48,004 nucleotides of DNA, taken from the NCBI GenBank assembly GCA_947479815.1, contig CANKAT010000016.1:1-48004 (forward strand), given 5' to 3'. This document shows positions 23,634-48,004 of the stretch, in pieces; position 1 is the stretch's first letter, and each line of letters opens with the position of its first letter. The translations under genes were made by a program, and so were the position numbers. This DNA comes from Sphingobacteriaceae bacterium. GTDB taxonomy: Bacteria > Bacteroidota > Bacteroidia > Sphingobacteriales > Sphingobacteriaceae. Under the pieces are notes generated by a model. It saw nothing but the letters and a program-made list of their open reading frames with translations. It had not been told where the DNA came from and made no database searches.

Positions 23634-23644
23634 CTGAATTGCAC

Positions 23645-24214
23645 ATGCAAAAGAAAAAACAGATTTGTGATTTTGAGCTTATCTCCCGGATTAAGGAAGG
23701 TGATGAATCAGCATTTCGAATTGTTTTTGACTTGTATTCCAGTAAATTATACGCTTTCAGTTATCGTTTTCTAAAAGAAAAGGAACCTTGTCAGGAGGTT
23801 GTTCAGGAAGTTTTTTTAAACCTTTGGATAAACCGGGCTAAGCTTGATAATCAATATCCAATCGCACCCTACTTATACACCATCACCCGCAGACTTACTC
23901 TTAACGTTTTGCGTCATGTTGCAACATCGCAGTGTGCAATGGATAAAATGTGGCTTAATGTTAAAAAGGTCAGTAATGAGACCGAAGAGGAAGTTTTTTT
24001 GGAGGATCTTTCCCGATTTACTGAGCAGGTATTATCCAAAATGCCAAAACAGCAACAATTGATATTTAGAATGAGCAGACATCAGGAGTTAAGCTATGAT
24101 GAAATTGCTGATGAATTGAATATATCAAGAAATACAGTTAAGAATCATTTAGTAGCAGCACTTAAAACGCTCCGTACCCAATTAAATAAGGCATTTTCTA
24201 TTTTCTTCTTCTAG
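23645..24214 (+). CDS. ECF RNA polymerase sigma factor, Bacteroidota type
   Basis: Region 2 (about residues 15-80: ESAFRIVFDLYSSKLYAFSY, then EVVQEVFLNLWINR) and region 4 (about 130-180: MPKQQQLIFRMSRHQELSYD followed by EIADELNISRNTVKNHL) are clear, and no anti-sigma-like extension is seen. It most resembles the Bacteroidota expansion of ECF sigma factors that sit with FecR proteins and SusC transporters. ATG at 23645 (MQKKKQ) is preferred over the upstream TTG at 23639. The fecR gene follows after 110 bp. Expected target: its own locus, including susC. Confidence 0.92.
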   Translation: MQKKKQICDFELISRIKEGDESAFRIVFDLYSSKLYAFSYRFLKEKEPCQEVVQEVFLNLWINRAKLDNQYPIAPYLYTITRRLTLNVLRHVATSQCAMDKMWLNVKKVSNETEEEVFLEDLSRFTEQVLSKMPKQQQLIFRMSRHQELSYDEIADELNISRNTVKNHLVAALKTLRTQLNKAFSIFFF

Positions 24215-24324
24215 AGTTTTAGCTGTCGACTGTTGTTTTTGAAAAAATAATTGAAGACAGACTAGTCCTCTTTTCATTTTCAGGTGTATAAGCTATAATT
24301 CGATGAGTCACGATTAATGCATTT

Positions 24325-25539
24325 ATGAATCAAAATAAGTTGATAGAACTTTTAGAGCTTTTTGTTGATGGTGGGATCAGCAAAGAGGAATACGACCTAT
24401 TGTTTGATTATATCCGTGCAAATTCGGAGGATGAAGAATTAAATATCGCAATCGATACTGTTTTTAAAAATTCCAAAAAGTTCAATCCTCTTAATAGTGA
24501 GGATAAGGAGCTGCTTTTTCAAAACATAATTAGAAATAATCATTTTGATAGTGAAATTCAGGATAAAATAGAAATTGTCTCATCATTCGCTCCGCGTTTG
24601 TGGTATCAACTGGGTATTGCAGCAAGTATATTAATTTTGATTACAACCGGTTTATACTTTTATAAGAATAGAACTGTAGATGATAAAATAGCAATGCAAG
24701 TTGTTGAGCCTAAAGAAGCTATCATTACACCTGGTGATGATAAGGCAATTTTAACACTTTCTGATGGTACTAAAATTATTTTAGAAGATGCAAAGAATGG
24801 AATTCTTGCTAACCAGGCAGGTGTCAGTATTCAAAAAACATCGGATGGTGAATTACTTTATTCTTTCTCAAATTCTGCAAATAGTGTTACTCATGCTGAA
24901 GAAAATATTCTCTATAATAAGATTGAAACGCCAATTGGAGGTAAATATCAGGTAAACCTGCCTGATGGAAGTAAGGTTTGGCTTAATTCTTCATCTTCGT
25001 TACGATTTTCTGCTCTTTTTAATGGGGATACGCGTGAAGTCGAGTTGATTGGTGAAGCATATTTTGATGTTTCCAAAAATAAGAGTAAACCTTTCAGAGT
25101 GATTACAAAAGATCAGATCGTAGAGGTTTTGGGAACCCAGTTCAATATAAATTCATATTCGGATGAAGGGCCTATAAAAACTACTTTGATTGAAGGCTCA
25201 GTCAAAATTATATATAAAGATAAGGTAGTGTTATTAAGTCCGGGACAACAGTTTCAGCCAAAGGAATTAGTTTCAGCAGTGGTTGAAGCAGATACTGAAG
25301 AAGTTGTAGCCTGGAAGGATGGGTATTTTGTGTTTAAAAATGAAGATATCAAAAGTATTATGCGAAAAATATCTCGCTGGTATAATGTTGAGGTCAGCTA
25401 TAGTGGGAATATTCCTGAAGTTGGCTTTGGAGGAAATATATCAAGATCAAAAGATATTTCAGAAGTTCTGGATGTTCTTCAATTAACTAATGCTATTCAT
25501 TTCAAAGTAGAAGGAAGGAGGATCACCGTTATGCGATGA
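24325..25539 (+). CDS. FecR-family anti-sigma factor
   Basis: This is an inner-membrane anti-sigma protein that receives a signal from the STN domain of the cognate TonB transporter. The cytoplasmic N-terminus (1-90, LIELLELFVDGGISKEEYDL) is followed by one membrane helix (about 94-112), then a periplasmic FecR domain (about 200-295: TPIGGKYQVNLPDGSKVWLN, then GEAYFDVSKN) and a C-terminal DUF4974 domain (about 330-404: FKNEDIKSIMRKISRWYNVE). At 404 residues it is normal. It lies between the ECF sigma and susC genes, so the three should form one signalling chain. Confidence 0.93.
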   Translation: MNQNKLIELLELFVDGGISKEEYDLLFDYIRANSEDEELNIAIDTVFKNSKKFNPLNSEDKELLFQNIIRNNHFDSEIQDKIEIVSSFAPRLWYQLGIAASILILITTGLYFYKNRTVDDKIAMQVVEPKEAIITPGDDKAILTLSDGTKIILEDAKNGILANQAGVSIQKTSDGELLYSFSNSANSVTHAEENILYNKIETPIGGKYQVNLPDGSKVWLNSSSSLRFSALFNGDTREVELIGEAYFDVSKNKSKPFRVITKDQIVEVLGTQFNINSYSDEGPIKTTLIEGSVKIIYKDKVVLLSPGQQFQPKELVSAVVEADTEEVVAWKDGYFVFKNEDIKSIMRKISRWYNVEVSYSGNIPEVGFGGNISRSKDISEVLDVLQLTNAIHFKVEGRRITVMR

Positions 25540-25574
25540 AGCAAACAAAATCGATAATACGGTAATCTTAAAAA

Positions 25575-25601
25575 ACCAAGAGCGGTTGCAACGCTCCTGG
25601 T
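25575..25601 (+). terminator. Hairpin between fecR and susC
   Basis: ACCAAGAGCG (25575-25584) pairs with CGCTCCTGGT (25592-25601) with one A-C mismatch and a 7-base loop; ATTTTGG follows. It could be an attenuator or weak terminator that separates low-level sigma/anti-sigma expression from high-level susC expression, or an RNA-processing site. Confidence 0.5.
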
Positions 25602-25665
25602 CAATTTTGGATTGCCAATTTAATTGTAGTACACAAGTATTAACTAAATCCAAACACGCAAATAT

Positions 25666-28600
25666 ATGAAATTACATTCATTAACCTTATGTAGGCCCTC
25701 TAACTACATAATAAAGCCATTGTTGATGATAAAACTAATTTTTGTTTTATTGATAACAGTATTCCTTCAAGTAAGCAGTGCTGAATCATTTTCTCAAACA
25801 GTCAGTCTGAAGTTTAGAAACACTAAACTTGAAATTGTACTAAAGGAGATTAGCAACCAAACGGGCTATGATCTGGTGTATATTACACCATTGATCAATG
25901 AAGCTAAACCAGTAAGTATCAATTTTAACAATGCACATCTCATAGATGTCCTTGAAAAATCTTTTTCTAATCAAGCACTTACTTATGCAATAAGTAATAA
26001 TACGATCATCGTTCAGCAGAAATCAAGTTCTTTTGCTCCTGATGCACTTATTGACATTAAAAATCTAACCGAAAAGGCGCTTCCATCCGAAATAAAAGGA
26101 CTGGTAACTGATTCAAAAGGTGATGGGCTGATCGGTGTAAGTGTCAAAGTAAAAGGCACTACAATAGGTGTAAGTACTGACGTTAATGGTCGTTATTCCA
26201 TTAACGTTCCTGATGGCTCATCAGTTCTAGTCTTCACCTACATAGGATATACAACTAAAGAGGTTTCTATATCTGGTCGTACAAGTATGGATGTTCAATT
26301 GGTACAAAATGCGGAGTCGTTGCAAGAGATAGTGGTTGTAGGTTATGGAACCCAAAAGAAAAGCGACTTAACTGGATCAATCGTTTCAGTAACTGCAAAA
26401 GATATCAAAGATCAGGCCTTTTCTAACATTAACCAAGCCCTTCAGGGTAAAGTTGCAGGTGTTACTTTTACAAGTACCTCAGGTGATCCGGGAGAAGGAG
26501 TAAACGTAAGAATACGTGGTTTGAATACATTTGGAAGTTCTGGTCCACTCTATGTAGTTGATGGAATGCCAATGAGTTCTGCTGATATTAACAATATAAA
26601 TCCGAATGATATTGAATCAACAACTGTTTTAAAAGATGGATCTGCCGCTGCAATTTATGGTTCAAGATCAGCAAATGGAGTGATTATCCTGACTACTAAA
26701 AGCGGTGGTAGTCAAACGCCTCAGGTTAGTTTCAATTCTTATTACGGTATTCAGTCATTCAATAAATTCATTCCTTTGATGAATTCGCAGCAGATGGCTG
26801 ATGTGATCAATGAAGCACATGTAAATGGAAATTTCTATCCATTACAACCGGCAATGAATGATCCCGCTAATCTTGCGAACAGTACTGATTGGCAAGATGA
26901 AGCAATCAACCCTGCACCTATTCAGGATCACTCCATTTCTATTATAGGAGGAAATCCAAATGCAAAATATGCTGTTTCAGGTGGTGTTTTTGATCAGGAA
27001 GGCGTAATGGCGTTTCGTACGTTTAAACGCTATTATTCCAGAGTGAAAACAGAATTTAAAATTGGTAAATTAACTGTTGGACAAACTTTAATTGCTAGTA
27101 GGGATCAAGGATTGAACCTTAATTTTGGTAATAACCTTGATTTGGCCTATATGATGGGTGCTGCACCAACGATGAAAGTTTATGACCCTACAAATGACAG
27201 TGGATATGCAGGCCCACAGCCTGCAGTTACTGGGGTAAATAATCGGGATAATATTTTAGGCCGACGCGATATGAACCGTGCATACACCTGGGATAATAAA
27301 ATGATAGGAACTGCATACGCATCCTATAAAATCTTACCTGATTTGGAGTTTAAGGTTAATGCCGGTCTTAACTATGGAACTAACAGGTTCAAGAATTATG
27401 TTCCTATGTTTCAGATGAATAACAGAGGTAGTACCTCGAGGTCATTGTCTGAAAGTTTATCAGAATCTTATGAATACCTGATTGAAAATACCCTTTCCTA
27501 CAATAAAGTAATCGCAAAAAACTACCGCGTTAATTTATTGGCAGGTTATACTCAGCAAAATTTCATGAGTAATTTCCTTTCGGGTACTAAAAGAGATTTC
27601 CCAAGCAATGATATACAAGCTTTAAGCGCAGGTACTGGATCCTTTACCGTAAATGGTAACCAGGCAGAAAATGCATTGCGCTCCTACTTAGGAAGAGCTA
27701 ACGTTACTTTATTTGACAAATATTTGGTGACTGCCACTATACGACGTGATGGTTCTTCCAGATTTGGTGAAACTAATAGGTATGGTAACTTCCCATCTTT
27801 GGCCTTTGGTTGGAATTTGGATCAGGAAAATTTCCTAAAGGATTCAAAATTAATCAGTGGATTAAAACTTAGAACAAGCTGGGGCCAATTAGGTAATCAG
27901 GATTTTGGAAATTATGCTAATCAGACGGTAGTTTCTACTTCTTCGCGTTATTTCCTTGGTGCAGATGTTTTAGCTCCTGCTGCTGTTGTAAATTCATTAG
28001 GAAATCCAGATTTGCGTTGGGAAAGAACTACTCAAACTAATATTGGTTTTGACCTTAGTTTGCTTCAAAATAAAATATCATTTACCGCAGATTATTGGGT
28101 TAAACAAACTGATGGTATAATTGTTCGCACGCCAATATCTACTGTTACTGGATTTGGTCGTGATTCAGGCCCTTATCAAAATGCCGCTAAACTGGAAAAT
28201 AAAGGGATGGAATTCATGCTTAGTTATAGAGGCGATGTTGGTAAACTTCAATATTCTGTTTCTGCCAATGCAGCTGCTGTGAAAAACAAAGTTATTTCAT
28301 TGGGAACTGGTACCAGTATCATTAATCTTCTTAATAACGTTTATTATTCAGGTACAAACGTTATTACTAAGCCAGGATTGCCAATGTCAACGTTCTATGG
28401 TCATATATCAGATGGTATTTTTCAGACTCAAGCAGAGATTGATGCTCATGCTAGCCAGCCTGGAGCAAAGCCTGGTGATGTAAGATTCAGAGATGTCAAC
28501 GGCGATAAAAAAATTGATGCAAATGACAGGACTAATATCGGCGATCCATGGCCAGACTTTGATTATGGATTTTCTGGTAATGCTTCCTATAAAGGCTTTG

Positions 28601-29070
28601 ACATGAACATGAGCTTTTATGGAACACAAGGAAAGCAACTTTATGATGCTCAGGGAGTTTATTTAGAGACGGCGCAAGGTGAGTGGAATAATAAAACCAC
28701 AATGCTTAATCGTTGGAAAGGGCCAGGTACATCTAATACCTTACCAAGGGCTGTTCGTGGTGATACCAATCAGAACAACCGTGGACAATCACGTTATGTC
28801 TTGGATGCAGATTTCTTAAGAATGCAAAATTTCCAGATTGGTTATACTCTTCCGCAGAATTTGATTAAAAGAGTAGGGGCAAGAAATGCAAGAGTATATT
28901 TCAACGGCCAGAATCTACTTACGTTTACAAAGTACCCTAATTACAATGCGGATACTCTGGGCGGTGCAGGCTATAATGACGATACAATGAGCCCATTGGG
29001 TTTTGGTGTAGATACAGGATCAAGTCCTATACCAAGTGTCTATTCATTTGGAGTTAATTTAACCTTCTAA
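25666..29070 (+). CDS. SusC/RagA-type TonB-dependent outer-membrane transporter with STN domain
   Basis: This 1134-residue importer takes a ligand through the outer membrane using TonB energy. A long signal region (about 1-44, ending SFSQ) leads to an STN signalling domain (about 50-120: FRNTKLEIVLKEISNQTGYD), a carboxypeptidase regulatory-like domain (about 143-215), the SusC plug start EIVVVGYGTQKKSDLTGSI near 222-240, the plug proper (LQGKVAGV, RIRGLNTFGSSGPLYVVDGM) and a 22-strand barrel ending SFGVNLTF. The STN domain fits control through the adjacent FecR and ECF sigma. Substrate: unknown, but the downstream locus argues for something other than a plain polysaccharide. Confidence 0.95.
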   Translation: MKLHSLTLCRPSNYIIKPLLMIKLIFVLLITVFLQVSSAESFSQTVSLKFRNTKLEIVLKEISNQTGYDLVYITPLINEAKPVSINFNNAHLIDVLEKSFSNQALTYAISNNTIIVQQKSSSFAPDALIDIKNLTEKALPSEIKGLVTDSKGDGLIGVSVKVKGTTIGVSTDVNGRYSINVPDGSSVLVFTYIGYTTKEVSISGRTSMDVQLVQNAESLQEIVVVGYGTQKKSDLTGSIVSVTAKDIKDQAFSNINQALQGKVAGVTFTSTSGDPGEGVNVRIRGLNTFGSSGPLYVVDGMPMSSADINNINPNDIESTTVLKDGSAAAIYGSRSANGVIILTTKSGGSQTPQVSFNSYYGIQSFNKFIPLMNSQQMADVINEAHVNGNFYPLQPAMNDPANLANSTDWQDEAINPAPIQDHSISIIGGNPNAKYAVSGGVFDQEGVMAFRTFKRYYSRVKTEFKIGKLTVGQTLIASRDQGLNLNFGNNLDLAYMMGAAPTMKVYDPTNDSGYAGPQPAVTGVNNRDNILGRRDMNRAYTWDNKMIGTAYASYKILPDLEFKVNAGLNYGTNRFKNYVPMFQMNNRGSTSRSLSESLSESYEYLIENTLSYNKVIAKNYRVNLLAGYTQQNFMSNFLSGTKRDFPSNDIQALSAGTGSFTVNGNQAENALRSYLGRANVTLFDKYLVTATIRRDGSSRFGETNRYGNFPSLAFGWNLDQENFLKDSKLISGLKLRTSWGQLGNQDFGNYANQTVVSTSSRYFLGADVLAPAAVVNSLGNPDLRWERTTQTNIGFDLSLLQNKISFTADYWVKQTDGIIVRTPISTVTGFGRDSGPYQNAAKLENKGMEFMLSYRGDVGKLQYSVSANAAAVKNKVISLGTGTSIINLLNNVYYSGTNVITKPGLPMSTFYGHISDGIFQTQAEIDAHASQPGAKPGDVRFRDVNGDKKIDANDRTNIGDPWPDFDYGFSGNASYKGFDMNMSFYGTQGKQLYDAQGVYLETAQGEWNNKTTMLNRWKGPGTSNTLPRAVRGDTNQNNRGQSRYVLDADFLRMQNFQIGYTLPQNLIKRVGARNARVYFNGQNLLTFTKYPNYNADTLGGAGYNDDTMSPLGFGVDTGSSPIPSVYSFGVNLTF

Positions 29071-29132: not shown

Positions 29133-30557
29133 ATGGAAAAGTTAAAATTTGCTATAACTACCTTCATAATATTAATATTATTTAGTGGTTGTGATAAAGA
29201 ATTTCTCGAAAAATCTCCGCCTGATGCTCTTACAGTTGTTGGGTTTTACAATTCTGCAGAACGTGCACAATTAGGAGTCAATGCAATATATGTGTCAGCT
29301 CAAACTGCATGGAGTGAAAACGTGATGAGGATACAAGATGTCCCTTCAGGTGATCTGATACTTTCAAATACTACTCCTTTAGAATACAATAATTTTACCT
29401 ATTACCCTGCTCTTACTCAAATACATACTAGTTGGAGTGGGCTGTATGAGGGTGTTATTAGGGCTAATGGAGTAATTAAAAATGTGCCAACTATTAATAT
29501 GGCTGATGCATTAAAGAATCAATATGTTGGTGAAGCTAAATTTCTGAGAGCACTGAACTATTTCACACTCACCAATCTCTTTGGAGCCGTGCCTTTAGTT
29601 ACTGAGCCTTTAGCAAATACGGATGCTGCACTTATAGCCAAAACTCCGGTTGCTGATATTAATAAAGTAATCATTGCCGACCTATTAGCTGCCGAAGCTG
29701 GCTTGCCAGTTTCTTACAGTGGAAGCAATTTAGGTAGGGCTACAAAAGGTGCTGCACAAGCTCTTTTAGGTAAAGTGTATTTGTATAATAAGGATTATAC
29801 CAATGCTGAAAAATATTTTAGCCTGGTTATAGCATCTAATACATACAGCCTCATGGATAATTTCCAAGAAGTATGGCATCGTAGTTTTGAGAACAATAAA
29901 GAATCGATTTTTGAACTGCAATATGCCGATATAGGCGGAAGTGGTAGCAATAATAAAAATGCAACCATGTTGCCCGCGGTTAATGGTGCAACTGGTTCAA
30001 CGCTTGCTACAAAAAGAGCGTATGATGCATTTGATCCAGGAGATCCACGCAGAGAGATGACAATATTTAAATCTGGAGATGTTTTTGCTCCTAATGTGAG
30101 TGCAGCCCTCTCTGTATTTAACCCAACATGGTCAGCAAGTGGTTATGCAGTTAAAAAAGGAATGTGGCCGATCATGTACGTGAATGGAAGTGGAATCAAT
30201 TATCCAATCATTCGATTTGCTGATGTATTACTGATGTATGCTGAGGCGGCAAATGAGCTTAATCAAATTGATAAAGCCCGCGATGCTGTTAATAGAGTTC
30301 GTCAGCGCCCATCCGTAATGATGCCTAAACTGACCGCTACTGATACTGGAACAAAACAAACGATGTTTGATGCTATTGTTAAAGAAAGAAGAGTGGAACT
30401 TATGTTTGAATTTCAACGGTTTATGGACTTACAACGTTGGGGCCTAGCTGCAACTGTATTAGCGCCTCTTGGATATCAGGCAAAACATGCTTTATTCCCG
30501 ATTCCTCAGCTTGAATTGGATATAAATCCTAAGCTAACGCAAAATCCGAACTGGTAG
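29133..30557 (+). CDS. SusD/RagB-type surface lipoprotein
   Basis: This is the substrate-binding lid partner of the SusC protein. A lipoprotein signal ends at LFSGC (Cys21). The SusD fold shows its usual marks: EFLEKSPPDALTVVGFYNSA near the start, YVGEAKFLRALNYFTLTNLF with the TPR-like helices, and the C-terminal AEAANELNQIDKARDAVNRV, VKERRVELMFEFQRFMDLQR and the ending FPIPQLELDINPKLTQNPNW. At 474 residues it is typical. It follows susC by 62 bp and is followed by a hairpin before the catabolic genes. Confidence 0.95.
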   Translation: MEKLKFAITTFIILILFSGCDKEFLEKSPPDALTVVGFYNSAERAQLGVNAIYVSAQTAWSENVMRIQDVPSGDLILSNTTPLEYNNFTYYPALTQIHTSWSGLYEGVIRANGVIKNVPTINMADALKNQYVGEAKFLRALNYFTLTNLFGAVPLVTEPLANTDAALIAKTPVADINKVIIADLLAAEAGLPVSYSGSNLGRATKGAAQALLGKVYLYNKDYTNAEKYFSLVIASNTYSLMDNFQEVWHRSFENNKESIFELQYADIGGSGSNNKNATMLPAVNGATGSTLATKRAYDAFDPGDPRREMTIFKSGDVFAPNVSAALSVFNPTWSASGYAVKKGMWPIMYVNGSGINYPIIRFADVLLMYAEAANELNQIDKARDAVNRVRQRPSVMMPKLTATDTGTKQTMFDAIVKERRVELMFEFQRFMDLQRWGLAATVLAPLGYQAKHALFPIPQLELDINPKLTQNPNW

Positions 30558-35238: not shown

Positions 35239-35278
35239 ATTACAATTGAATTAGAACAAGTCATTAATAATTAATGCT

Positions 35279-36580: not shown

Positions 36581-36612
36581 TTAAAAAACAAAAAATCTAA
36601 AATATATTCAAT

Positions 36613-38256: not shown

Positions 38257-38263
38257 TTAATCG

Positions 38264-38295
38264 CCCTGCTGGTGATAGCTCCAGCAGGGTATTTT
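38264..38295 (+). terminator. Terminator after SelA-like copy 2
   Basis: CCCTGCTGG (38264-38272) and CCAGCAGGG (38281-38289) form a perfect 9-bp GC-rich stem with an 8-base loop, followed by TATTTTG. It splits the catabolic locus into two transcription units, or allows partial read-through into the CBM9-like gene. Confidence 0.8.
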
Positions 38296-38351
38296 GTTAT
38301 TAAGCTTCATAATTTTTTAGAACTATTCATCAATAAACTACCAATAATTTA

Positions 38352-39089: not shown

Positions 39090-39118
39090 AACTGGTGTCT
39101 ATATAAATTACCGTTAAC

Positions 39119-40411: not shown

Positions 40412-40435
40412 AATGTTAAAATAATTTTAAGAATA

Positions 40436-41740: not shown

Positions 41741-43402
41741 ATGAAACGCAGAGATGTAATTAAGGGACTGGCTATGTTACCGGTTGTTGGAAGTGTTCTA
41801 TCAAGTGATTCGGTTTTGGCAGGAACTGTTACAGAAAATAAATCTTTAGCGCAAAGTTCAGAATCGCTAAGTACATTGAATTCCTTTTTGTCAGAAACTA
41901 ATATATACAGAACAATGGGTGTTGAGCCCATCATCAATTGTAGGGGCTCTTATACCATTATAGGAGGGTCAATCAAAAGGCCAAAAGTCAAACTTGCCTT
42001 AGAAGCGGCCAGCACAAACTTTGTACAGCTCGATGAGCTTGCTGAAGCTGTTGGAAAGCGTCTTGCAGAGCTCACAAAATCAGAATGGGGAATGGTTTCT
42101 TCAGGATGTGCAGCCGGAGTAAAACATATTACGGCAGCTTGCGTTACTGGTGGAAGCCCAGAAAGACTCATCCGCATTCCTGATCTTACCGGATTTGAAA
42201 AAACGGAGGTTATCATTCCAAGATATTCTCGCCAGCACTATGATCATGCAGTCCGGAATATTGGTGTAAAAATAATCACTGTATCTACTCCTGAAGAATT
42301 AGAAAAGGCCATCAATTCAAAAACTGCAATGATCTACCTTACTTCAGGCACGCCTGGTGCTGCTTCTGATACAGGTCAGCCCTTATCTTTAGAGGTGATT
42401 GCCTCAATAGCTAAACCAAAAAATATTCCAATTTTGATGGATGCCGCAGCAGAGAGTTTGACCATTCCACCCTATCATTTAAAGAGAGGAGCAGATATAG
42501 TAGCCTACAGCGGTGGTAAAACTATCCGTGGCCCGCAGTCGGCAGGATTAATGCTCGGAAATAAAAATATTTTATTAGCCGCATGGCAGGCAAGTGCTCC
42601 GCATCATGGCCCGGGCCGCGACAATAAACTAGATCGTGATGAAATTGTAGGAATGGTTGCAGCAGTTGAAGACTGGCTAGAGCGGGATCATGAGGGGGAG
42701 TGGAAAAGATGGCTTAGTTGGCTTGACGTCATATCAAAGAAAGTTACTCAGATCAATGGTATAAGCACCAAGGTTGTTGAACCCATCAATTTGAACAATA
42801 AATATCCGGTACTTCATATTATCTGGGATCCTGAAAAATTTTACGTTACAGGATATGAAATTGCAGAAGAAGTGGGAAGAAATAAGCCAAGAATAGCTCT
42901 TGGAAATCGAGATGAACCTGATGGTACAACCTCCATACAGATTACGCCGGGGCACATGCAGGTGGGTGAAGAAAAGATTGTTGCCGACCGGTTATTTGAA
43001 GTATTATCGAAAAAGCGTAGCCCAAAGCCCGAGATGAAAACGCCCGCAATAAACCTAAGCGGACGATGGGATGTTGAAGTTCACTATGCATTAAGTACCA
43101 GCCAGCATTCTTTTACGATTGAACAGGATGGAAACTGGATTCAGGGAACTCATAAAGGAGATCTGGACACTAAAAATATGGTGGGTACAATTGATGGAGA
43201 TGAAGTGAAGATTAAGAGTACGATTCCTATCGTTGGGAATATTATTATTTACCTTTTCTCCGGAAAAGTGAGTGGTGATACCATATCAGGAGATATCCAT
43301 ATGGGTGAATACCTAACAGCAAAATTTACAGCAAAGCGAAATAAAACTAAGCTTCCGCGTCAAAAAGTGATGATTCCGGGAGGTCAGCCTTTAGCTACCT
43401 GA
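41741..43402 (+). CDS. SelA-like PLP enzyme, exported, copy 3, with C-terminal beta domain
   Basis: A Tat-type signal (MKRRDVIKGLAMLPVVG), PLP Lys260 in VAYSGGKTIRGPQ, Asp234 in LMDAAAES, and the extra C-terminal beta domain (GRWDVEVHYA to EYLTAKFTAK) are present. It has a 3-residue longer loop near 205 (GTPGAASDTGQP) and IRG where copies 1 and 2 have ICG just after the PLP lysine, a change near the active site. The 553-residue length includes about 110 residues beyond the cytosolic family. It closes the second cassette; the amidohydrolase_2 gene follows after 35 bp. Confidence 0.8.
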   Translation: MKRRDVIKGLAMLPVVGSVLSSDSVLAGTVTENKSLAQSSESLSTLNSFLSETNIYRTMGVEPIINCRGSYTIIGGSIKRPKVKLALEAASTNFVQLDELAEAVGKRLAELTKSEWGMVSSGCAAGVKHITAACVTGGSPERLIRIPDLTGFEKTEVIIPRYSRQHYDHAVRNIGVKIITVSTPEELEKAINSKTAMIYLTSGTPGAASDTGQPLSLEVIASIAKPKNIPILMDAAAESLTIPPYHLKRGADIVAYSGGKTIRGPQSAGLMLGNKNILLAAWQASAPHHGPGRDNKLDRDEIVGMVAAVEDWLERDHEGEWKRWLSWLDVISKKVTQINGISTKVVEPINLNNKYPVLHIIWDPEKFYVTGYEIAEEVGRNKPRIALGNRDEPDGTTSIQITPGHMQVGEEKIVADRLFEVLSKKRSPKPEMKTPAINLSGRWDVEVHYALSTSQHSFTIEQDGNWIQGTHKGDLDTKNMVGTIDGDEVKIKSTIPIVGNIIIYLFSGKVSGDTISGDIHMGEYLTAKFTAKRNKTKLPRQKVMIPGGQPLAT

Positions 43403-43437: not shown

Positions 43438-44391
43438 ATGAAACGTAGAGATTTAATTAAAGGAATCACAGCAGTGCCCTTACTTAGTGCTTTAAATCCG
43501 ATTGCATCTGTTTTAGCCTCAAATTCTGGCAAAAGCTTCAAAAAGCGCCTGGTTATTGATACTCATGTTGAGACCTGGAATTTTGATCCAAGATTCCCTT
43601 TTAAACATCCTGAGAATCCAAATTTAAAAGTGGCTATAGAGGCTCCAATTGAGAATCAGGTTAAACAAATGAAAGATTTTGATCTCAAATATGGAGTTCT
43701 TATCAATCCGCGTTATTATGGATGGGATAATTCATACATGGCTAATAATCTTAAAACTTATCCTAAGCAGTTTGTTGCGCATGGTTTATTGAATCCACAT
43801 GATCCCAAAATAGTAGATAATCTCAGATATTGGGTAAATGAACATGGCTTTCAGGGTATGCGTTTCAGCCCGATTTACACGCCCAAAGAAACCTGGTTAA
43901 ACTCTCCGGAACATTATCCTCTTTGGAAGGAAGCAGAAAAATTGGGGCTTTGTTTCAACTATTATATTGTTCCCCACCAAATGCCAATGCTGGCAGATAT
44001 GGCAGAGCGCTTTCCGGGTGTAAAAATTGTAGTTGACCATGCAGGAAAACCTGATCTGAAAGCCGCAGATTGCTGGCCTGAATTCAAGAAAATGTTTAAA
44101 CTAAGCCGTTTCTCAAATGTTTGGATAAGTAATTCAGAGCCCTATGAAATGTCTGAGATCAAGAAGTATCCCTATGAAGATACATTGCCGTTTTATAAGG
44201 CCATTTATGAAGAGTTTGGAGCCAAGCAGATTATTTGGGGTACCGGCTATCCTTTTCCAAGATGGGAACTGCCAATGGATAAAGAGCTGGAGTTTATGGA
44301 TAAGTACTGTAATTTCTACACGGATAACGATCTTGACCTGATCATGGGGAAAAATGCCCTTGGTATATGGAAATTTCCTGGAAAATCCTGA
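43438..44391 (+). CDS. Exported amidohydrolase_2 / lactonase-like TIM-barrel protein with altered active site
   Basis: A Tat-type signal (MKRRDLIKGITAVPLL) precedes a COG3618/amidohydrolase_2 barrel, a group that includes sugar-lactone and pyrone-dicarboxylate lactonases. Conserved context is visible: DTHVETWNF (41-49), HGFQGMRFSP, VVDHAGKPD with His201, and IIWGTGYPFP. Two usual key residues are replaced: the HxH motif reads HVE (His43, Glu45), and the Asp of WGSDWP is Gly270 in WGTGYP. It may use a different metal set, act without metal, or be inactive. The position after the second cassette suggests a lactone or cyclic intermediate as substrate. Confidence 0.75.
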   Translation: MKRRDLIKGITAVPLLSALNPIASVLASNSGKSFKKRLVIDTHVETWNFDPRFPFKHPENPNLKVAIEAPIENQVKQMKDFDLKYGVLINPRYYGWDNSYMANNLKTYPKQFVAHGLLNPHDPKIVDNLRYWVNEHGFQGMRFSPIYTPKETWLNSPEHYPLWKEAEKLGLCFNYYIVPHQMPMLADMAERFPGVKIVVDHAGKPDLKAADCWPEFKKMFKLSRFSNVWISNSEPYEMSEIKKYPYEDTLPFYKAIYEEFGAKQIIWGTGYPFPRWELPMDKELEFMDKYCNFYTDNDLDLIMGKNALGIWKFPGKS

Positions 44392-44463: not shown

Positions 44464-45387
44464 ATGAGATATAGTTTCCAGTTATTGCTTTCCTTGTGCT
44501 TGCTGATATTACCCTTACAATCTTTGTTCGCTCAAGCTATTCCCAAAGAGGAACTAATCTTTTTGACTTCTGCCTGGAAAGGTGAACGTTTTGAGGATGG
44601 TCGCCCACGAATCCCTGACGAGTTGTTGAACCGTGCAAAGTCGATTGGTATTGAAGAGGCCTGGCAAATATTAAATAATGAAGGCTATTTGTATCAATAT
44701 GAGCGAAATTGGAAAATATTACATGAAGATGAAAAGGTTATTGGAAGGGCTTTAACTGCTTTTTATATGCCTATTCGTCCTGATGTGGAAAAGAATATCG
44801 TAGATCGTGCTGCCGCAGAAGGCAAACAAGGCAGGCATTTGCACTGGCCTATTAATATGCTTACCAAAGGTGATGTGTATGTTGCTGATAATGAAGGTAG
44901 AGTAGGGTCACTGATGGGTGATAACCTTGGAAATGTGATTTATAAAAACTCAGGAAATGGAGTAATATTTGATGGGTTTGCCCGCGACGTGGATGGATTG
45001 GCCGAGATCAAGGGATTTAATGCCTTTGTAAGAGATTTTGCACCCCAGTTTTTACAGGGTGTTGTGTTGATGGGTTTGAATACTCCGGTTACAATTGGAC
45101 AAGCCATTGTTTTACCTGGAGACCTAGTTATTGCTGGCCGTGCCGGGGTAGTATTTATTCCTGCTCATATGGCTGAACAGGTTATTGCTACTGCAGAATT
45201 CATTGCTTCAAAAGATCGTTTTGGCCATGAGATGATCAAAAGTGGAGCCTATAAGGCGGGGCAGGTTGATACACAATGGAGCGAAGAAATCAGAGTAGAA
45301 TACATGAAGTGGCTGGAAAAAAATCCAAAAGAAAAAAAGATCAGCCGCGCTCAGCTTGATCAATTTATGTTAAAAAGAACCTGGTAA
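44464..45387 (+). CDS. Exported RraA-like (class II pyruvate aldolase / HMG aldolase family) protein
   Basis: A Sec signal (1-24, ending FAQ) and an added N-terminal helical region (about 25-90) precede the RraA/HMG-aldolase fold. The fold shows the family motif GDNLG (Gly152-Asp153) and, about 20 residues later, DGFARD (Arg174, Asp175), which in active aldolases bind the metal and pyruvate enolate. Such enzymes split 4-hydroxy-2-oxo acids to pyruvate plus a second oxo acid; RraA itself inhibits RNase E. Export and the intact G-D...R-D motif favour an enzyme here. At 307 residues it is longer than usual because of the N-terminal part. BASS transporter gene follows by 23 bp. Confidence 0.78.
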   Translation: MRYSFQLLLSLCLLILPLQSLFAQAIPKEELIFLTSAWKGERFEDGRPRIPDELLNRAKSIGIEEAWQILNNEGYLYQYERNWKILHEDEKVIGRALTAFYMPIRPDVEKNIVDRAAAEGKQGRHLHWPINMLTKGDVYVADNEGRVGSLMGDNLGNVIYKNSGNGVIFDGFARDVDGLAEIKGFNAFVRDFAPQFLQGVVLMGLNTPVTIGQAIVLPGDLVIAGRAGVVFIPAHMAEQVIATAEFIASKDRFGHEMIKSGAYKAGQVDTQWSEEIRVEYMKWLEKNPKEKKISRAQLDQFMLKRTW

Positions 45388-45410
45388 TATTTTCCCTTAA
45401 ATTAAATCGG

Positions 45411-46523
45411 ATGAAACCTATTTTTAAAATTGTATTGGGAATTGGCATTTTATGCATACTCACTGCACTTACCTTGTATCTGCTCAACAGATCTACTGAT
45501 GCCGAGCCATTTCTGATTGCATCACTCATATCTATTGCCATTGGAATTCGGGGTGTATCAGCTTTAAAAGGATTTGCCTATCCTGTAATGATCTTCGGTG
45601 TAGTTTCTACAGCAATGATCTTTCCTCAGTATTTTCTTGAGATCAATGGCTTTAAATTATCTGGCCTGATTACTCCCCTCATTCAGTTAATCATGTTTGG
45701 AATGGGTATTACTATGAGCTACAGAGATTTTATTGGAGTATTTAAATCTCCTAAAGGAGTTCTTGTAGGGGTTTCAAGCCATTTTATAATCATGCCTTTG
45801 CTAGGGTTTGGATTGGCAACTTTCAGTGGTTTTACTCCCGAAATTGCAGCAGGCATGATTCTGATCGGATGCGCACCGAATGCTGTTGCAGCAAACGTTA
45901 TTTCATATCTGGCAAAAGCTAACCTAGCTCTATCCATTACACTTACTTCACTAGCAACCTTATTAGCTCCTTTCCTCACACCCCTACTGATGAAGTTATT
46001 AGGAGGTTCATTCATTGAGATCAATGTACTTGATATGATGTGGGACATTATGAAAATGGTCATTTTGCCAGTCACACTCGCTATGGTAATCAATGAACTC
46101 CTGAAGGATAAAATGAAGTGGATTAATGCGGTAATGCCCATTGTATCTATGTTTGGTATCGCATTTATCATTATAATTGTTACTGCCGTAGGTCGTGAAA
46201 GTCTTTTAAAAGTCGGTCCACTTCTTATACTATTAGTTTTGATTCATAACCTCATGGGCTATACCTTAGGATATTGGTTTGCTCGCTTGTTTAAAATGAG
46301 TGAAAAGGATTCCAGAACTATTGCAATTAATGTAGGGATGCAGAATGCTGGTCTTTCAAAAGGCCTAGCCTATGGAATGGGTAAGCTTGGAACCGTCGGA
46401 CTTGCACCAATGATCTATGGTCCGATGATGAACATCACCGGTTCTATTCTGGCATCTTACTGGAAAGGAAACCCCATTTCAGAACCTGATGGAAAAGATG
46501 AAATTAATCAACAAAAAAAATAA
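45411..46523 (+). CDS. BASS-family (bile acid:Na+ symporter-like) organic-anion transporter
   Basis: About ten membrane helices fill residues 5-350. Family marks include MFGMGITMSYRDF near 95, LIGCAPNAVAANVISYLAKA near 158-177 with the crossover segment, and MQNAGLSKGLAYGMG near 305-320, which supply the sodium sites and substrate crossover region. Relatives move bile acids, pantoate and other organic anions. In this context it is the likely inner-membrane entry route for an acid product (2-oxo acid or similar) made in the periplasm. It sits between the exported aldolase-like gene and an exported NTF2-like gene. Confidence 0.88.
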   Translation: MKPIFKIVLGIGILCILTALTLYLLNRSTDAEPFLIASLISIAIGIRGVSALKGFAYPVMIFGVVSTAMIFPQYFLEINGFKLSGLITPLIQLIMFGMGITMSYRDFIGVFKSPKGVLVGVSSHFIIMPLLGFGLATFSGFTPEIAAGMILIGCAPNAVAANVISYLAKANLALSITLTSLATLLAPFLTPLLMKLLGGSFIEINVLDMMWDIMKMVILPVTLAMVINELLKDKMKWINAVMPIVSMFGIAFIIIIVTAVGRESLLKVGPLLILLVLIHNLMGYTLGYWFARLFKMSEKDSRTIAINVGMQNAGLSKGLAYGMGKLGTVGLAPMIYGPMMNITGSILASYWKGNPISEPDGKDEINQQKK

Positions 46524-46529
46524 ATAATC

Positions 46530-46958
46530 ATGCTCAACTACTTAAAAATTTTCACTTTACTTACTGTAATTAGTCTGAATGCACAGGCTCAATCCAAAAA
46601 AGAAACACAAATTGCAAAGCTGGTCATCGCTATTAATAATGCCATCATCAATACAGACAGCCTTACTTTAAAGGACCTCACTTGCGAGGAATTAAGTTAT
46701 GGACATTCTGCTGGGTTAATTCAGGATCAGAAAGCATTTATTGCAGGAGTATTGAACGGACCTACATTTTTTAAAAGTATTGAACCCTTTGATCAGAAAA
46801 TTACAATGGCAGGTAAAAATGCAATTGTAAGACATATTGTAACTGCTAAGGCTGTAAATAAAGGGAATCCATTAGATTTAAAATTTGGGAACATAATGGT
46901 TTGGCAGAAAAAGCATGGCAAGTGGAAGTTGCTTGCGCGACAAGGCTATAAGCTATAA
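46530..46958 (+). CDS. Exported NTF2-like (DUF4440/SnoaL-type) small protein
   Basis: A Sec signal (1-20, ending AQA) is followed by a cone-shaped NTF2-like domain: IAKLVIAINNAIINTDSLTL, ELSYGHSAGLI, and a C-terminal sheet with FGNIMVWQKKHGKWKLLARQ. Fold members range from enzymes (isomerases, dehydratases) to binding proteins, and the function cannot be read from sequence. Bacteroidota homologues often sit in sugar or organic-acid loci. It begins 6 bp after the transporter stop and 9 bp before the aldolase gene, so it belongs to the operon. Exported location fits the periplasmic part of the pathway. Confidence 0.75.
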   Translation: MLNYLKIFTLLTVISLNAQAQSKKETQIAKLVIAINNAIINTDSLTLKDLTCEELSYGHSAGLIQDQKAFIAGVLNGPTFFKSIEPFDQKITMAGKNAIVRHIVTAKAVNKGNPLDLKFGNIMVWQKKHGKWKLLARQGYKL

Positions 46959-46967
46959 TTTAAAAAG

Positions 46968-47639
46968 ATGAATTTAAAAACAGAGCTTTCAAGGCTTATA
47001 AAAGAACAGGGAATTGTGCCATTGTACTACTCGGCTGATGCTGAAGTAAGTATTGATCTGATGAGGGCAATGTATGCAGGGGGCATTAGAACTACTGAAT
47101 ATGCAGATCGCGGTGATCGTGCATTGAAAAATTTCCGGGAGATGCGCAAAGTATGTGATGCCGAATTACCCGGAATGCGATTAGGTATTGGTACAATAAA
47201 AACTTTGGAATCTGCCCAAACTTATATTGATGAAGGCGCAGAATTTTTGGTATGCCCAGGAATTTTGGAGTCTGTGATTGAATTGTCTGACAAGAATGAT
47301 CTTCTATGTGTTCCTGGTTGTATGACCCCCAGCGAAATCATTCGAGCCGAAACTTGCGGGGCAAAGATTGTTAAGCTGTTCCCAGCAAATACCTTAGGTC
47401 CATCATTTATTGAAGCAGTGCAGGCACTTTTTCAAGATATTGTTTTTTTACCTACAGGCGGTATTGAACTTAACGAAGAAAATCTTAGAAGCTGGTTTAG
47501 AGTTGGAGTTTGCGCAGTTGGGGGTAGTAAAATGATTACCAAGGACGTGATTGAAAATAAGCGATATGATCACTTAGCCGCAGAGTCTAAAAGAGCGCTT
47601 GAGCTCATCAGTTTAATCAGAGAAAGTTTTAAAAAGTAA
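46968..47639 (+). CDS. KHG/KDPG-type class I aldolase, cytoplasmic
   Basis: This enzyme cleaves a 2-oxo-3-deoxy (phospho)sugar acid or 4-hydroxy-2-oxoglutarate to pyruvate plus an aldehyde. The TIM barrel shows Glu44 (TTEYADRGD), GIGTIKT near 73-79, CPGI near 96, VPGCMTPSE near 115-123, the Schiff-base lysine Lys136 in KIVKLFPA, and PTGGIE near 165. No signal peptide is present, unlike most proteins upstream, so it acts in the cytoplasm after uptake. At 223 residues it is normal length. In DgaE/DgaF-type loci a related aldolase uses the product of the SelA-like ammonia lyase, which supports the pathway model. Confidence 0.88.
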   Translation: MNLKTELSRLIKEQGIVPLYYSADAEVSIDLMRAMYAGGIRTTEYADRGDRALKNFREMRKVCDAELPGMRLGIGTIKTLESAQTYIDEGAEFLVCPGILESVIELSDKNDLLCVPGCMTPSEIIRAETCGAKIVKLFPANTLGPSFIEAVQALFQDIVFLPTGGIELNEENLRSWFRVGVCAVGGSKMITKDVIENKRYDHLAAESKRALELISLIRESFKK

Positions 47640-47663
47640 TATTTTTCAATATTCTATCAAAAA

Positions 47664-48004
47664 ATGAACGAATCATTATATAAATACATGAAAGTTGGCT
47701 TGGTCCACTTTATGGCTTTCCCTGCAACGATCAAGGGAGAAGGTCCGGTGCTTGAAACCATTCGAAAGATTGCTGTAGATGACTATTTTAGTGCCATTGA
47801 GATCACAACGATTAAAGACACTGAGCAACGAATGGCAGTAAAAAAAATGCTTGAAACATCGCATATGACCATCGCTTATGGTGCTCAGCCAAGATTATTA
47901 ACTACCGGTCTAAACATTAATCATCTGGTTGAAGAGGAACGTCAAAAGGCATTACAAAATTTAATGGCCGGAATTGACGAGGCTTATGAATTAGGTGCAA
48001 CAAG
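47664..48004 (+). CDS. Sugar phosphate isomerase/epimerase-like TIM barrel, cut by the window edge
   Basis: Translating from the ATG at 47664 gives MNESLYKYMKVGLVHFMAFP, then an open frame to the window end (113 codons seen). The first strand KVGLVHFMAFP, followed by a helix (LETIRKIAVDDYFSAIEITT) and a later MTIAYGAQPRLL strand, resembles the xylose-isomerase-like/AP-endonuclease 2 superfamily. No signal peptide is visible. It starts 24 bp after the aldolase gene. The C-terminal half with the metal ligands lies outside, so the reaction is unknown; an isomerase feeding the cytoplasmic aldolase is one option. Confidence 0.7.
   Translation, partial: MNESLYKYMKVGLVHFMAFPATIKGEGPVLETIRKIAVDDYFSAIEITTIKDTEQRMAVKKMLETSHMTIAYGAQPRLLTTGLNINHLVEEERQKALQNLMAGIDEAYELGAT

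Follow-up and report, generated by a model that had tools for sequence, protein, structure and literature searches.

Organization of the locus

The window, by which we mean the whole stretch of 48,004 nucleotides that was analyzed, ends in a row of 19 genes on the + strand. The first four encode an ECF sigma factor (23639..24214; Sigma70_r4_2, 54.1 bits; Sigma70_r2, 39.6 bits; no signal), a FecR anti-sigma factor (24325..25539; FecR, 69.1 bits; FecR_C, 78 bits), a SusC-like TonB-dependent outer-membrane transporter (25666..29070; Plug, 89.1 bits; CarbopepD_reg_2, 60.2 bits) and a SusD-like lipoprotein with a lipobox (29133..30557; SusD_RagB, 138.8 bits; SusD-like_3, 80.2 bits), that is a SusC/SusD pair with its regulator as judged by Pfam. 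The SusC-like protein has an STN-like stretch, whose score of 27.1 bits is slightly below the STN cut-off of 28.4. Then comes an M19 dipeptidase gene (30802..32121; Peptidase_M19, 280.4 bits), the ORF of which was called with a TTG start; its orthologs in loci L009, L011, L012 and L015 begin with MKRRD. It is followed by genes for three DgaE/SelA-like fold-type I PLP enzymes, SelA1 (32205..33884, with an extra C-terminal domain), SelA2 (36613..38256) and SelA3 (41741..43402), and for four amidohydrolases/deacetylases, two of a type A (AHA1, 33931..35238; AHA2, 39119..40411) and two of a type B (AHB1, 35279..36580; AHB2, 40436..41704). The block of type A amidohydrolase, type B amidohydrolase and SelA occurs twice, flanking a CBM9_2 gene (38352..39089; 130.8 bits).

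Downstream lies a gene for an Amidohydro_2 protein (43438..44391; 125 bits), which is related to the hydrolases of 2-pyrone-4,6-dicarboxylate and sulfomuconolactone. It reaches 63.5 bits with NF042924 (cut-off 500), its best solved relative is 2ffi, and it is a candidate lactonase. The row continues with an RraA-like aldolase-family protein (44464..45387; RraA-like, 64 bits), a BASS-family, PanS-like inner-membrane carrier (45411..46523; SBF, 127 bits; 209.3 with the PanS model NF047939, cut-off 400), a DUF4440 protein (46530..46958; 47.4 bits) and a KHG/KDPG aldolase-family protein (46968..47639). The latter is above the Pfam cut-off (Aldolase, 112.6 bits) and under its curated NCBIfam cut-offs, narrowly so for TIGR01182 (147.7 against 156.05). 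The last gene, open at the contig end (47664..48004), is TIM-barrel isomerase/epimerase-like, as judged by its complete ortholog (AP_endonuc_2, 62.9 bits). Every gene named in a preliminary description of this DNA was found by ORF calling and Pfam/NCBIfam matches, in the order given there; the CBM9_2 and DUF4440 proteins were absent from that list. Its statement that the locus has no glycoside hydrolase also held, since no glycoside hydrolase or polysaccharide lyase family matched among the 19 proteins in Pfam; there was only the CBM9_2 protein. Nothing in the window operon was recognized as a sugar kinase, a sugar dehydrogenase or a glyceraldehyde dehydrogenase.

The operon extends beyond the window. 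The window ends at the contig end, which shares an exact 35-base overlap with the end of contig C31, and on C31 the TIM-barrel gene is followed by genes for a 2-hydroxyacid dehydrogenase, two RidA lipoproteins and a glycerate kinase. The order of these tail genes is kept in 7/7 orthologous loci. Because its order recurs in other genomes, the gene row goes beyond chance.

Predicted export of the enzymes

Export signals were called by a simple home-made rule, not by SignalP. This rule assigned Tat-type signals to the M19 dipeptidase, the three PLP enzymes and the Amidohydro_2 protein, and Sec-type signals to the amidohydrolases and the RraA-like, CBM9 and DUF4440 proteins; AHA1 was flagged as a lipoprotein, its orthologs being of Sec type in 7/8 cases. 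From M19 through DUF4440, all proteins except the membrane carrier therefore have an export-type N-terminus (Tat, Sec or lipoprotein) by the rule, and none was called on the aldolase, the TIM barrel, the dehydrogenase and the kinase. The same compartment split recurs, by the same rule and with few exceptions, across the orthologous operons.

The proteins called as Tat substrates combine a twin-Arg signal with a hydrophobic stretch, and TatC is present in the genome, so that their export is predicted. In all 14 DgaE-like genes of the genome, KRRx[LVI][LI]K is encoded at the N-terminus or close to it. For one of them, on contig C29, the mechanical ORF call begins 12 residues earlier. In a sample of 50 DgaE-like proteins found by their core domain, 47 satisfy the Tat rule; the other three (one Sec, two none by the rule) all show an N-terminal RR by eye. 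The preliminary description had seen signal sequences on nearly all enzymes before the carrier and none on the aldolase and isomerase, which agrees with these calls, and a cytoplasmic location of the SelA-like proteins and amidohydrolases, which would have contradicted its scheme, is opposed by the predicted export and the presence of TatC. Judged from these N-termini, an extracytoplasmic location of the enzymes is well supported.

The PLP enzymes

DgaE is the ammonia-lyase and DgaF the aldolase of the Salmonella D-glucosaminate route DgaABCDEF. The NCBIfam scan covered SelA1 and SelA2, for which the best match was the DgaE family model TIGR01437 (137.2 and 143.8 bits); SelA3, assigned by alignment, was picked up by this model when the genome was searched (143.9 bits). 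The three scores of 137-144 bits are far under the cut-off of 385.3, and with the other DgaE model, NF047797, SelA1 and SelA2 reached at best 138.5 (cut-off 600). No match above a DgaE-model cut-off was obtained in the genome search. Among 117 other sampled Bacteroidota genomes, no DgaE-like gene was found at E 1e-15. The lysine of a YSGGK motif is conserved in the SelA alignment, the motif and an Asp at position 228 being invariant in 38 rows and aligning with the DgaE sequence; we take these two residues to bind PLP. These data assign SelA1-3 a fold-type I core with both residues; their ammonia-lyase activity is putative.

The AlphaFold2 model of SelA2 matches both 7lc0 (DgaE, TM 0.86 by target) and 8t7j (Cap15), which ranks first among the structure matches, on a par with DgaE. 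The exported PLP enzymes could thus be O2-using oxidases or decarboxylases like Cap15, which has a SelA-like fold, and, by location, PvdN, with RidA hydrolyzing the oxidation imine and beta-hydroxy-alpha-amino acids being oxidized outside the inner membrane. PvdN, periplasmic according to a title cited in PMC7497351, is also an O2-using fold-type I PLP enzyme. We consider this reading rather unlikely, since by sequence profile DgaE is nearer (2.8e-34) and Cap15 only second (8.1e-26), and since the aldolase gene of the operon and the DgoK and KDPGal aldolase of a sister cluster (see below) point to 2-keto-3-deoxy acids.

The amidohydrolases

All four amidohydrolases match Amidohydro_1 in Pfam (52.2 bits for AHA2, 45.6 for AHB2). 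The NCBIfam scan covered AHA1 and AHB1, which are both above the cut-off of 371 of NF006689, the PRK09237/COG3964 amidohydrolase-deacetylase model (433.1 and 406.6 bits); AHA2 is 61% identical to AHA1 and AHB2 67% identical to AHB1. An AlphaFold2 model of AHB1 was obtained with a pLDDT of 89.1. Metal ligands were compared in an alignment of 113 rows, of which 109 are homologues and four are repeats of window rows, with reference residues from the 2ogj/2ics alignments and a strand numbering that we assume. AHA1, of type A, shows the pattern HxH, Lys, Asp, His, Asp, and in AHB1, of type B, the strand-4 Lys is replaced by Arg and the strand-5 His by Glu. In 109/109 homologues Asp or Glu takes the place of the strand-5 His, which rules out the full 2ogj/2ics ligand set (HxH, Lys, His, His, Asp) for these proteins. 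The strand-4 Lys is Arg in 20/109 homologues (22/113 rows) and Cys in one, HxH is lost in two, and the strand-6 His and strand-8 Asp are found in all. Type B proteins, which lack the usual metal ligands in this alignment, may therefore act otherwise than as hydrolases.

The EF_0837-type trio consists of a COG3964 amidohydrolase, a SelA-like protein and a KDPG aldolase, and the same three families occur here in one operon. EF_0837, as well as 2ics/2ogj, can be aligned with two of the amidohydrolases. Unlike the trio, they stay under the TIGR03583 cut-off of 432.15 (237.7 and 216.9 bits), have the strand-5 substitution and are predicted to be exported.

RidA genes and gene neighborhoods

The two RidA genes of C31 score 56.1 and 49.9 bits with PF01042 (cut-off 27.3), their orthologs 50.4 and 54.4 bits. 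Both proteins, predicted to be exported lipoproteins, have a C-terminal Arg in a HARSAVG motif, presumably the catalytic Arg of RidA. Of the 10 exported RidA genes in the whole genome, seven are found no more than 10 kb from a DgaE-like gene, in windows that make up 4.6% of the genome (p 4e-8), and three lie away from any; 6/8 are near when tandem pairs are collapsed (10 kb; p 2e-7) and 5/10 within 5 kb (p 8e-6). None of the three cytoplasmic RidA genes is near a DgaE-like gene.

We compared the neighbors of 40 sampled DgaE-like loci with those of 20 arbitrary loci. An amidohydrolase was found beside the DgaE-like gene in 22/40 against 0/20, and RidA in 20/40 against 1/20. RraA, SMP30, M19, CBM9, Amidohydro_2 and KDPG-aldolase were not significantly enriched in this sample, nor was GSDH (13/40 against 3/20, p 0.13). 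In 15 Dyadobacter loci the PLP gene had no recognized amidohydrolase or RidA nearby, and the 12 sampled acidobacterial loci had an amidohydrolase in one case and RidA in two. The co-occurrence in other genomes anticipated in the preliminary description is borne out, with RidA in addition.

The presence of M19 in the window operon, of M81 and gamma-glutamyltransferase (GGT) in the sister cluster C9 and of RidA in both could also indicate peptide or conjugate nutrients. M19 and GGT would free an S- or O-substituted amino acid, the amidohydrolases would de-N-acylate it, and PLP-dependent beta-elimination would give 2-aminoacrylate for hydrolysis by RidA, as a periplasmic counterpart of mercapturate breakdown. 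However, GGT occurs in only 3/40 sampled loci, and the single locus of the 40 that has M19 (L165) is orthologous to the window operon. Sugar acids also agree better with glycerate kinase, aldolase, gluconolactonase and GSDH-type dehydrogenases, and the characterized homologue DgaE works on an amino sugar acid, as the name of 7lc0 tells. We regard this explanation as very improbable.

Sister clusters and the nature of the substrate

In the C29 cluster, one strand carries genes for a DgaE-like protein, three amidohydrolases, DgoK (KDGal kinase), a KDPGal-type aldolase scoring above the cut-off of TIGR01182, an MFS protein similar to galactonate transporters, and an enzyme that resembles galactonate dehydratase and has a Tat-like N-terminus. 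GSDH-family sugar dehydrogenases are found in the C35, C34 and C9 clusters and, by similarity, in C19; C35 also has a gluconolactonase, and C9 has RidA beside M81 and GGT. DgoK and the KDPGal aldolase of C29, together with the aldolase-family gene of the operon, suggest a 2-keto-3-deoxy acid as the class of product. The genome has no AA10 LPMO, the LPMO family searched, and one GH18 match, which weakens chitin-derived N-acetylglucosaminate among the substrates proposed previously; the sugar-acid class as such is backed by the sister clusters.

A simple N-acyl-D-amino acid or D-peptide, similar to N-acyl-D-serine or -threonine and originating from peptidoglycan or from secondary metabolites, would also account for M19 together with deacylases, the sugar-type tail then serving only for hydroxy-amino acids. 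D-serine and D-threonine are also deaminated by OngC, according to the available part of PMC9537276. This substrate seems unlikely to us, as three paralogous PLP enzymes and four deacylases in one operon, CBM9 and the tail with glycerate kinase hint at something more complex and derived from sugar, and the sister cluster has DgoK.

A proposed periplasmic pathway and its relation to known systems

Predicted export, operon structure, conservation and co-occurrence are supported by these sequence comparisons, and we somewhat favor the view that the operon handles an amino-sugar-acid-like nutrient, with the nitrogen chemistry in the periplasm. As to each reaction, the order of flux, the role of the BASS carrier and the substrate class (a 2-acylamino-2-deoxy-aldonate or -aldarate), we infer the following. 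SusCD, controlled by ECF sigma/FecR through a presumed trans-envelope signaling, would bring the substrate over the outer membrane. In the periplasm, M19 would cut an aminoacyl or peptide bond; lactone opening may fall to the Tat-exported Amidohydro_2 protein, and the Sec-exported amidohydrolases would take off the N-acyl group. The Tat-exported PLP enzymes would then eliminate the 3-hydroxyl, giving the enamine/imine of a 2-keto-3-deoxy acid, and the membrane-anchored RidA lipoproteins would hydrolyze the imine to release ammonia. BASS would move inward the keto acid, or pyruvate freed by the RraA-like protein; the cytoplasmic aldolase would cleave the imported keto acid, whose C3 half would become a phosphoglycerate through the action of the isomerase, the hydroxyacid dehydrogenase and the glycerate kinase. 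Periplasmic deacylation and deamination, as proposed earlier, gain from the predicted export, the co-occurrence, the exported RidA and the sister clusters, and lose from a PLP model equally near Cap15; the earlier scheme is partly supported and, as written, leaves the tail of hydroxyacid dehydrogenase and glycerate kinase unaccounted for.

The enzymes of the Dga route are intracellular and work on a phosphorylated substrate. The locus shares with it the homologous fold-type I PLP family (7lc0), a KHG/KDPG-type aldolase gene and, if our reading holds, nitrogen from a 2-amino sugar acid. It differs by SusCD and BASS, predicted Tat export, N-deacylases, exported RidA and PLP scores far under the DgaE equivalog cut-off, with no PTS recognized in the window operon. 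PvdN is Tat-exported. It is likewise a fold-type I PLP enzyme in the periplasm, a location that is predicted here, but it is a single, biosynthetic enzyme of pyoverdine maturation, and its account in the available part of PMC7497351 makes no mention of RidA or deacylase partners. Salmonella takes in the Dga substrate by a PTS, according to PMC4987338.

In the Ong route of Pseudoalteromonas, as described in the accessible parts of PMC9537276 and PMC12017989, OngB belongs to the amidohydrolases of D-aminoacylase type (subtype V), OngC is a fold-type III PLP enzyme and inner-membrane import is of SSS type. OngB, OngC and OngD act as deacylase, PLP deaminase and RidA on N-acetylglucosaminate and are predicted to be cytoplasmic; once ongD was deleted, growth on this substrate was lost (PMC9537276, same part). 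Compared with these descriptions of Ong (OngB, OngC, OngD, KdgK), the locus has in common a deacylase, a putative PLP deaminase, RidA, TonB-dependent import and, if our reading holds, an unphosphorylated amino sugar acid, but its enzymes have other folds and subfamilies and are predicted to be exported. Membership in the Ong oxidative chitin route was rejected: the RidA partner matches, and the OngB-type deacetylase, the fold-type III deaminase and the cytoplasmic location do not. The pathway would resemble the Dga and Ong routes of the cytoplasm, moved to another compartment and with its enzymes in several copies. If this is true, a PLP enzyme and its helper protein, which are normally intracellular, would work outside the inner membrane, and the leftover acid would be imported as food.

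Gene content of the operon and its continuation on a second contig

The window is the full length (48,004 bases) of contig C16, one of 157 contigs in a genome of 3.2 Mb, and the operon under study occupies the part of it from position 23,639 onwards. According to the ORF coordinates, its genes lie on the + strand throughout, and neighbours from SelA1 (32205-33884), the first of three DgaE/SelA-like PLP enzymes, to the TIM-barrel gene are 6-95 bases apart. The preliminary description had listed the genes from the ECF sigma factor to the carrier and the aldolase, and ORF calls and family scans found every gene it named to be correct, but a CBM9_2 gene (38352-39089) and a DUF4440 gene (46530-46958) had been overlooked. 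A block of type A amidohydrolase, type B amidohydrolase and SelA-like genes is present in two copies flanking the CBM9 gene. The named records closest to the PLP enzyme come from Sphingobacteriaceae, namely MAGs labelled Pedobacter schmidteae (95 and 92%) and Daejeonella (89%). A scan of the window predicted 61 promoters (shuffles 57.9, sd 6.5) and 18 terminators (shuffles 14.6, sd 3.9), with no excess of either. Between SelA2 (36613-38256) and the CBM9 gene, a strong hairpin at 38263-38290 (10 pairs, 7 of them G-C) is followed by a T-rich stretch and could be a partial terminator damping expression of the second block.

The final ORF of the window runs off the contig end. Contig C31 of the same genome opens with 35 bases identical to the end of the window and carries the reading frame on. 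Downstream of the TIM barrel it has genes for a D-2-hydroxyacid dehydrogenase, a pair of RidA proteins bearing lipoprotein signals, and a glycerate kinase. All 7 orthologous loci read in other genomes (L100-L106) keep this arrangement, from the aldolase through the TIM barrel, the dehydrogenase and both RidA genes to the kinase. In one of these, L103, the orthologs scored 62.9 bits with PF01261 (TIM barrel), 198.4 bits with 2-Hacid_dh_C (dehydrogenase), 50.4 and 54.4 bits with PF01042 (the two RidA), and 414.7 bits with Gly_kinase and 399.1 with TIGR00045, above its cut-off of 168.45 (kinase). In Daejeonella sp. H1SJ63, whose public record bears no MAG label, the orthologous operon is divided between two contigs (L010 and L104).

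Predicted compartments of the operon products

We assigned N-termini by a simple rule, in which a twin-Arg plus a hydrophobic stretch denotes Tat, a hydrophobic stretch Sec and a lipobox a lipoprotein. By this rule the M19 dipeptidase, SelA1, SelA2, SelA3 (41741-43402) and the Amidohydro_2 protein are Tat-type; Sec-type signals were called for three of the four COG3964-type amidohydrolases and for the CBM9, RraA-like and DUF4440 proteins; the operon RidA proteins are lipoproteins; and the aldolase, TIM barrel, dehydrogenase and kinase carry no signal. The remaining amidohydrolase, the type A protein AHA1, was called a lipoprotein, probably wrongly, since 7/8 of its orthologs are Sec-type. The same split was predicted in orthologous operons with few exceptions, truncated and duplicate ORFs being left out. 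Predicted export of the SelA-like and amidohydrolase proteins, with a signal-free aldolase and TIM barrel, agrees with the preliminary description, which had placed deacylation and deamination in the periplasm. Since cofactor loading of PLP enzymes generally takes place in the cytoplasm and Tat exports folded proteins, Tat is the expected route for them; TatC is encoded in the genome.

Copy number and Tat motif of the DgaE-like family

A search with TIGR01437, the DgaE-family model, retrieved 14 DgaE-like genes from the genome at E < 1e-30, a further weak match on C28 (6e-7) being excluded. All 14 encode KRRx[LVI][LI]K at or near the N-terminus. Since a TIGR01437 census of 118 evenly drawn Bacteroidota genomes gave a match at 1e-15 in this genome alone, the neighbourhood of such genes was studied in 20 known carriers, a non-random set preselected for the gene. 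Among the matches listed, these carry 1 to 18 copies: 13-18 in six Daejeonella/Pedobacter-like genomes of 2.5-4.3 Mb, 9 in a seventh, 7-15 in each of four acidobacterial genomes (G133-G136, stretches L063, L070, L072 and L075) and 1-3 in the remaining nine. Forty sampled loci yielded 50 ORFs by our own core model, and 47 pass the Tat rule; the other three (one Sec, two with no signal by rule) have an N-terminal RR by eye. Both the 14 genes and the 50 ORFs were found via the core domain and not via the Tat motif. One of the two patterns in the scan that gave L007-L077 was the peptide MKRR[ND]V[IL]K, and Tat motifs there are therefore not independent evidence.

Neighbours of DgaE-like genes

The 40 loci were taken at roughly every fourth row among the matches listed for the 20 carriers, and rows overlapping other picks or noticed as orthologs of the window operon were swapped for adjacent ones; towards the end of the second set the picks were less regular. 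The sample still includes one window-operon ortholog (L165), two loci overlapping by 2.9 kb (L140 and L143) and one without a PLP gene at our threshold (L168), which was counted in the denominator. As controls we used 20 stretches of 17 kb, placed arbitrarily by hand at round coordinates on long contigs of bacteroidote genomes belonging to the same set. Amidohydrolases were found beside DgaE-like genes at 22/40 loci and in 0/20 controls (Fisher p 8e-6) and RidA at 20/40 and 1/20 (p 4e-4), Fisher and binomial p values being guides only because the genomes are related and the loci not independent. A signal-like N-terminus was present in 44/45 of these amidohydrolase genes and 19/23 of the RidA genes.

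Among the neighbour families tested, strong enrichment was restricted to these two. Loci against controls gave 16/40 and 3/20 for SusC, 13/40 and 3/20 for GSDH, 5/40 and 0/20 for T432-type genes, 3/40 and 0/20 for GGT, 1/40 and 1/20 for M19, 0/40 and 1/20 for KDPG aldolase, and 0/40 and 0/20 for Amidohydro_2; BASS and cytochrome each gave 7/40 and 0/20, RraA and SMP30 each 4/40 and 0/20. The co-occurrence expected from the preliminary description held strongly for amidohydrolases, and RidA joins them, but was not strong for RraA and BASS. Judged by eye, 21 of the 28 bacteroidote loci have an amidohydrolase, 18 a RidA and 27 either one; the corresponding counts for the 12 acidobacterial loci are 1 for amidohydrolase and 2 for RidA, suggesting that acidobacterial DgaE-like genes, mostly without these neighbours, have another use or belong to dispersed pathways. 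The sequences give good support to both predicted export and co-occurrence, and confidence in the two is high.

RidA proteins

The genome has 13 RidA ORFs (15 domain matches), sorted by eye from their N-termini into 10 exported and 3 not. A DgaE-like gene lies within 10 kb of 7/10 exported and 0/3 non-exported RidA; 10-kb windows round DgaE-like genes make up 4.6% of the genome (p about 4e-8, or 2e-7 with tandem pairs collapsed, C16 and C31 being treated as adjacent). Both RidA of the window operon possess the C-terminal Arg. A 2012 J Biol Chem title, cited in PMC9537276, states that the YjgF/RidA family deaminates enamine/imine intermediates of PLP enzymes, and an excerpt of PMC9537276 reports that in the Ong (N-acetylglucosaminate) route RidA is required for growth on N-acetylglucosaminate, its step being not known. 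The best single indication that the PLP reaction takes place outside and gives an imine is the presence of two predicted exported RidA in one operon with predicted exported PLP enzymes.

Other RidA forms were also seen. An exported-type 397-aa protein on C53 (L083:5958-7151) has three RidA-like domain matches in tandem; a SusCD pair and further exported-type proteins are encoded nearby, and no DgaE-like gene was seen there. On C1 (L084:8875-9971), two adjoining RidA genes without a DgaE-like neighbour encode Tat-type signals much like those of the PLP enzymes (MKRREILKGLTILPLAG).

Protein models and active sites

The AlphaFold2 model of SelA2 (pLDDT 86) consists of a PLP core and an all-beta domain of eight strands (residues 435-527, window 37915-38193), which is aligned in SelA1 and SelA3. 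This C-terminal domain occurs in PLP enzymes of about 530-560 residues and is missing from those of ~400-440; the 50 fold matches listed were all to PLP-core proteins, none to this beta-barrel. The best solved matches of the model were Cap15 (8t7j, E 1.9e-26) and DgaE (7lc0, E 3.1e-26). Cap15 is described in an excerpt of PMC7497351 as an O2-dependent decarboxylase of a beta-hydroxy-alpha-amino acid, which would be a different chemistry from the DgaE ammonia-lyase reaction. The structural matches do not decide between the two; by sequence DgaE is favoured.

For the type B amidohydrolase AHB1 (model pLDDT 89), the best matches were 8je0, 8wzy, 2ics and 2ogj. The exported branch to which the four window amidohydrolases (33931-41704) belong has no solved member among the best matches. 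In an alignment in which sequences identical past residue 60 were merged, ORFs of 350 aa or less removed and the four window proteins entered twice, the strand-5 metal-ligand His is replaced by Asp or Glu in 109/109 homologues, and the strand-4 Lys by Arg in 20/109, including both window type B proteins. These substitutions indicate that the metal site of the exported branch differs from that of the aligned solved structures. Types A and B may represent two different activities, or type B may be non-catalytic.

Sister clusters

Contig C29 of the same genome (L089:6048-14804 and L091:1-10187) encodes on one strand a SusC-like protein, a SusD-like lipoprotein (by eye), a DgaE-like enzyme, three amidohydrolases, a sulfatase, a galactonate-dehydratase-like enzyme with a Tat-like N-terminus, a further protein, DgoK (PF05035, 200 bits), a KDPGal-type aldolase (TIGR01182, 173.9, above the cut-off of 156.05), a galactonate-transporter-like MFS protein and RraA. 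This cluster may encode a periplasmic pathway that yields KDGal, with sulfated galactosamine perhaps as the starting material. C35 encodes a cytochrome-GSDH fusion (PF07995, 310.6 bits), a DgaE-like enzyme, an SMP30 gluconolactonase, an exported RidA, a second, weak GSDH match, RraA, BASS and DUF4440. C34 combines GlcNAc 2-epimerase family proteins, GSDH-cytochrome, a RidA lipoprotein, a protein judged NagB-like from its sequence, a DgaE-like enzyme and an amidohydrolase. RidA, DgaE-like, GSDH, at least two amidohydrolases, SMP30, RraA and BASS occur together in L026, L027, L037 and L038 (mostly Chitinophagaceae), L026 having the same run minus RraA. GSDH enzymes use PQQ. A Tat-type protein of ~430 aa with no Pfam match heads a C9-type cluster by SusCD in L150, L151, L152 and L003:4386-5684, and a relative, judged by eye, follows GGT at L003:17318-18688.

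Proposed pathway and substrate

From this gene content, an aldose would be oxidised to a lactone by the GSDH-type dehydrogenases of the sister clusters, the ring would be opened by their SMP30, the N-acyl group would be taken off, ammonia would then be eliminated, and a 2-keto-3-deoxy acid would be imported. The window operon has the later steps of this sequence, Amidohydro_2 perhaps standing in for SMP30; because it has no GSDH-type dehydrogenase, its substrate may come pre-oxidised. A deacylase, ammonia-lyase and RidA logic is, on balance, likely; amino sugar acids as the candidate substrate class are plausible, though we would not yet lean on them. Chitin or LPMO action was not favoured as the substrate source, the genome giving no AA10 match (the sole LPMO family searched) and one GH18 match.

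The aldolase, TIM barrel, hydroxyacid dehydrogenase and glycerate kinase fit the conversion of a C3 product via glycerate to phosphoglycerate. With tartronate semialdehyde as the aldehyde half, an amino-aldaric or amino-uronic acid would be the substrate; with glyceraldehyde in its place, the operon lacks an aldehyde dehydrogenase. The TIM barrel gave no NCBIfam match to hydroxypyruvate isomerase at 1e-5 and matched IolO and D-psicose 3-epimerase weakly, which makes the tartronate-semialdehyde idea, with its amino-aldaric substrate, a guess.

Significance

PLP-dependent catabolism and imine-quenching RidA are regarded as cytoplasmic. A literature search on exported RidA, Tat-exported PLP enzymes and SelA-like or Daejeonella loci, with most subscription journals outside its scope, found no title describing such a system. 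The window system would work like Dga (the DgaE ammonia-lyase route) and Ong, although by membership tests it belongs to neither. We tentatively propose, still short of an even expectation, that PLP-dependent nitrogen removal has here been transferred as a whole to the periplasm: ammonia-lyases exported by Tat, exported deacylases and RidA, and the sugar dehydrogenases and lactonases of the sister clusters would form a previously undescribed oxidative pathway for N-acyl amino sugars, importing the nitrogen-free keto acid alone, with 13-18 PLP genes in clusters each tuned to another substrate.

If true, amino-sugar ammonia would be released outside the inner membrane and carbon alone taken in. 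This would give a testable role to many genes of Sphingobacteriaceae, Chitinophagaceae and Acidobacteriota that family searches name only SelA/aminotransferase-V-like, amidohydrolase, RraA or RidA, and it also predicts that oxidised N-acyl amino sugars form a class of nutrients that has drawn little attention.
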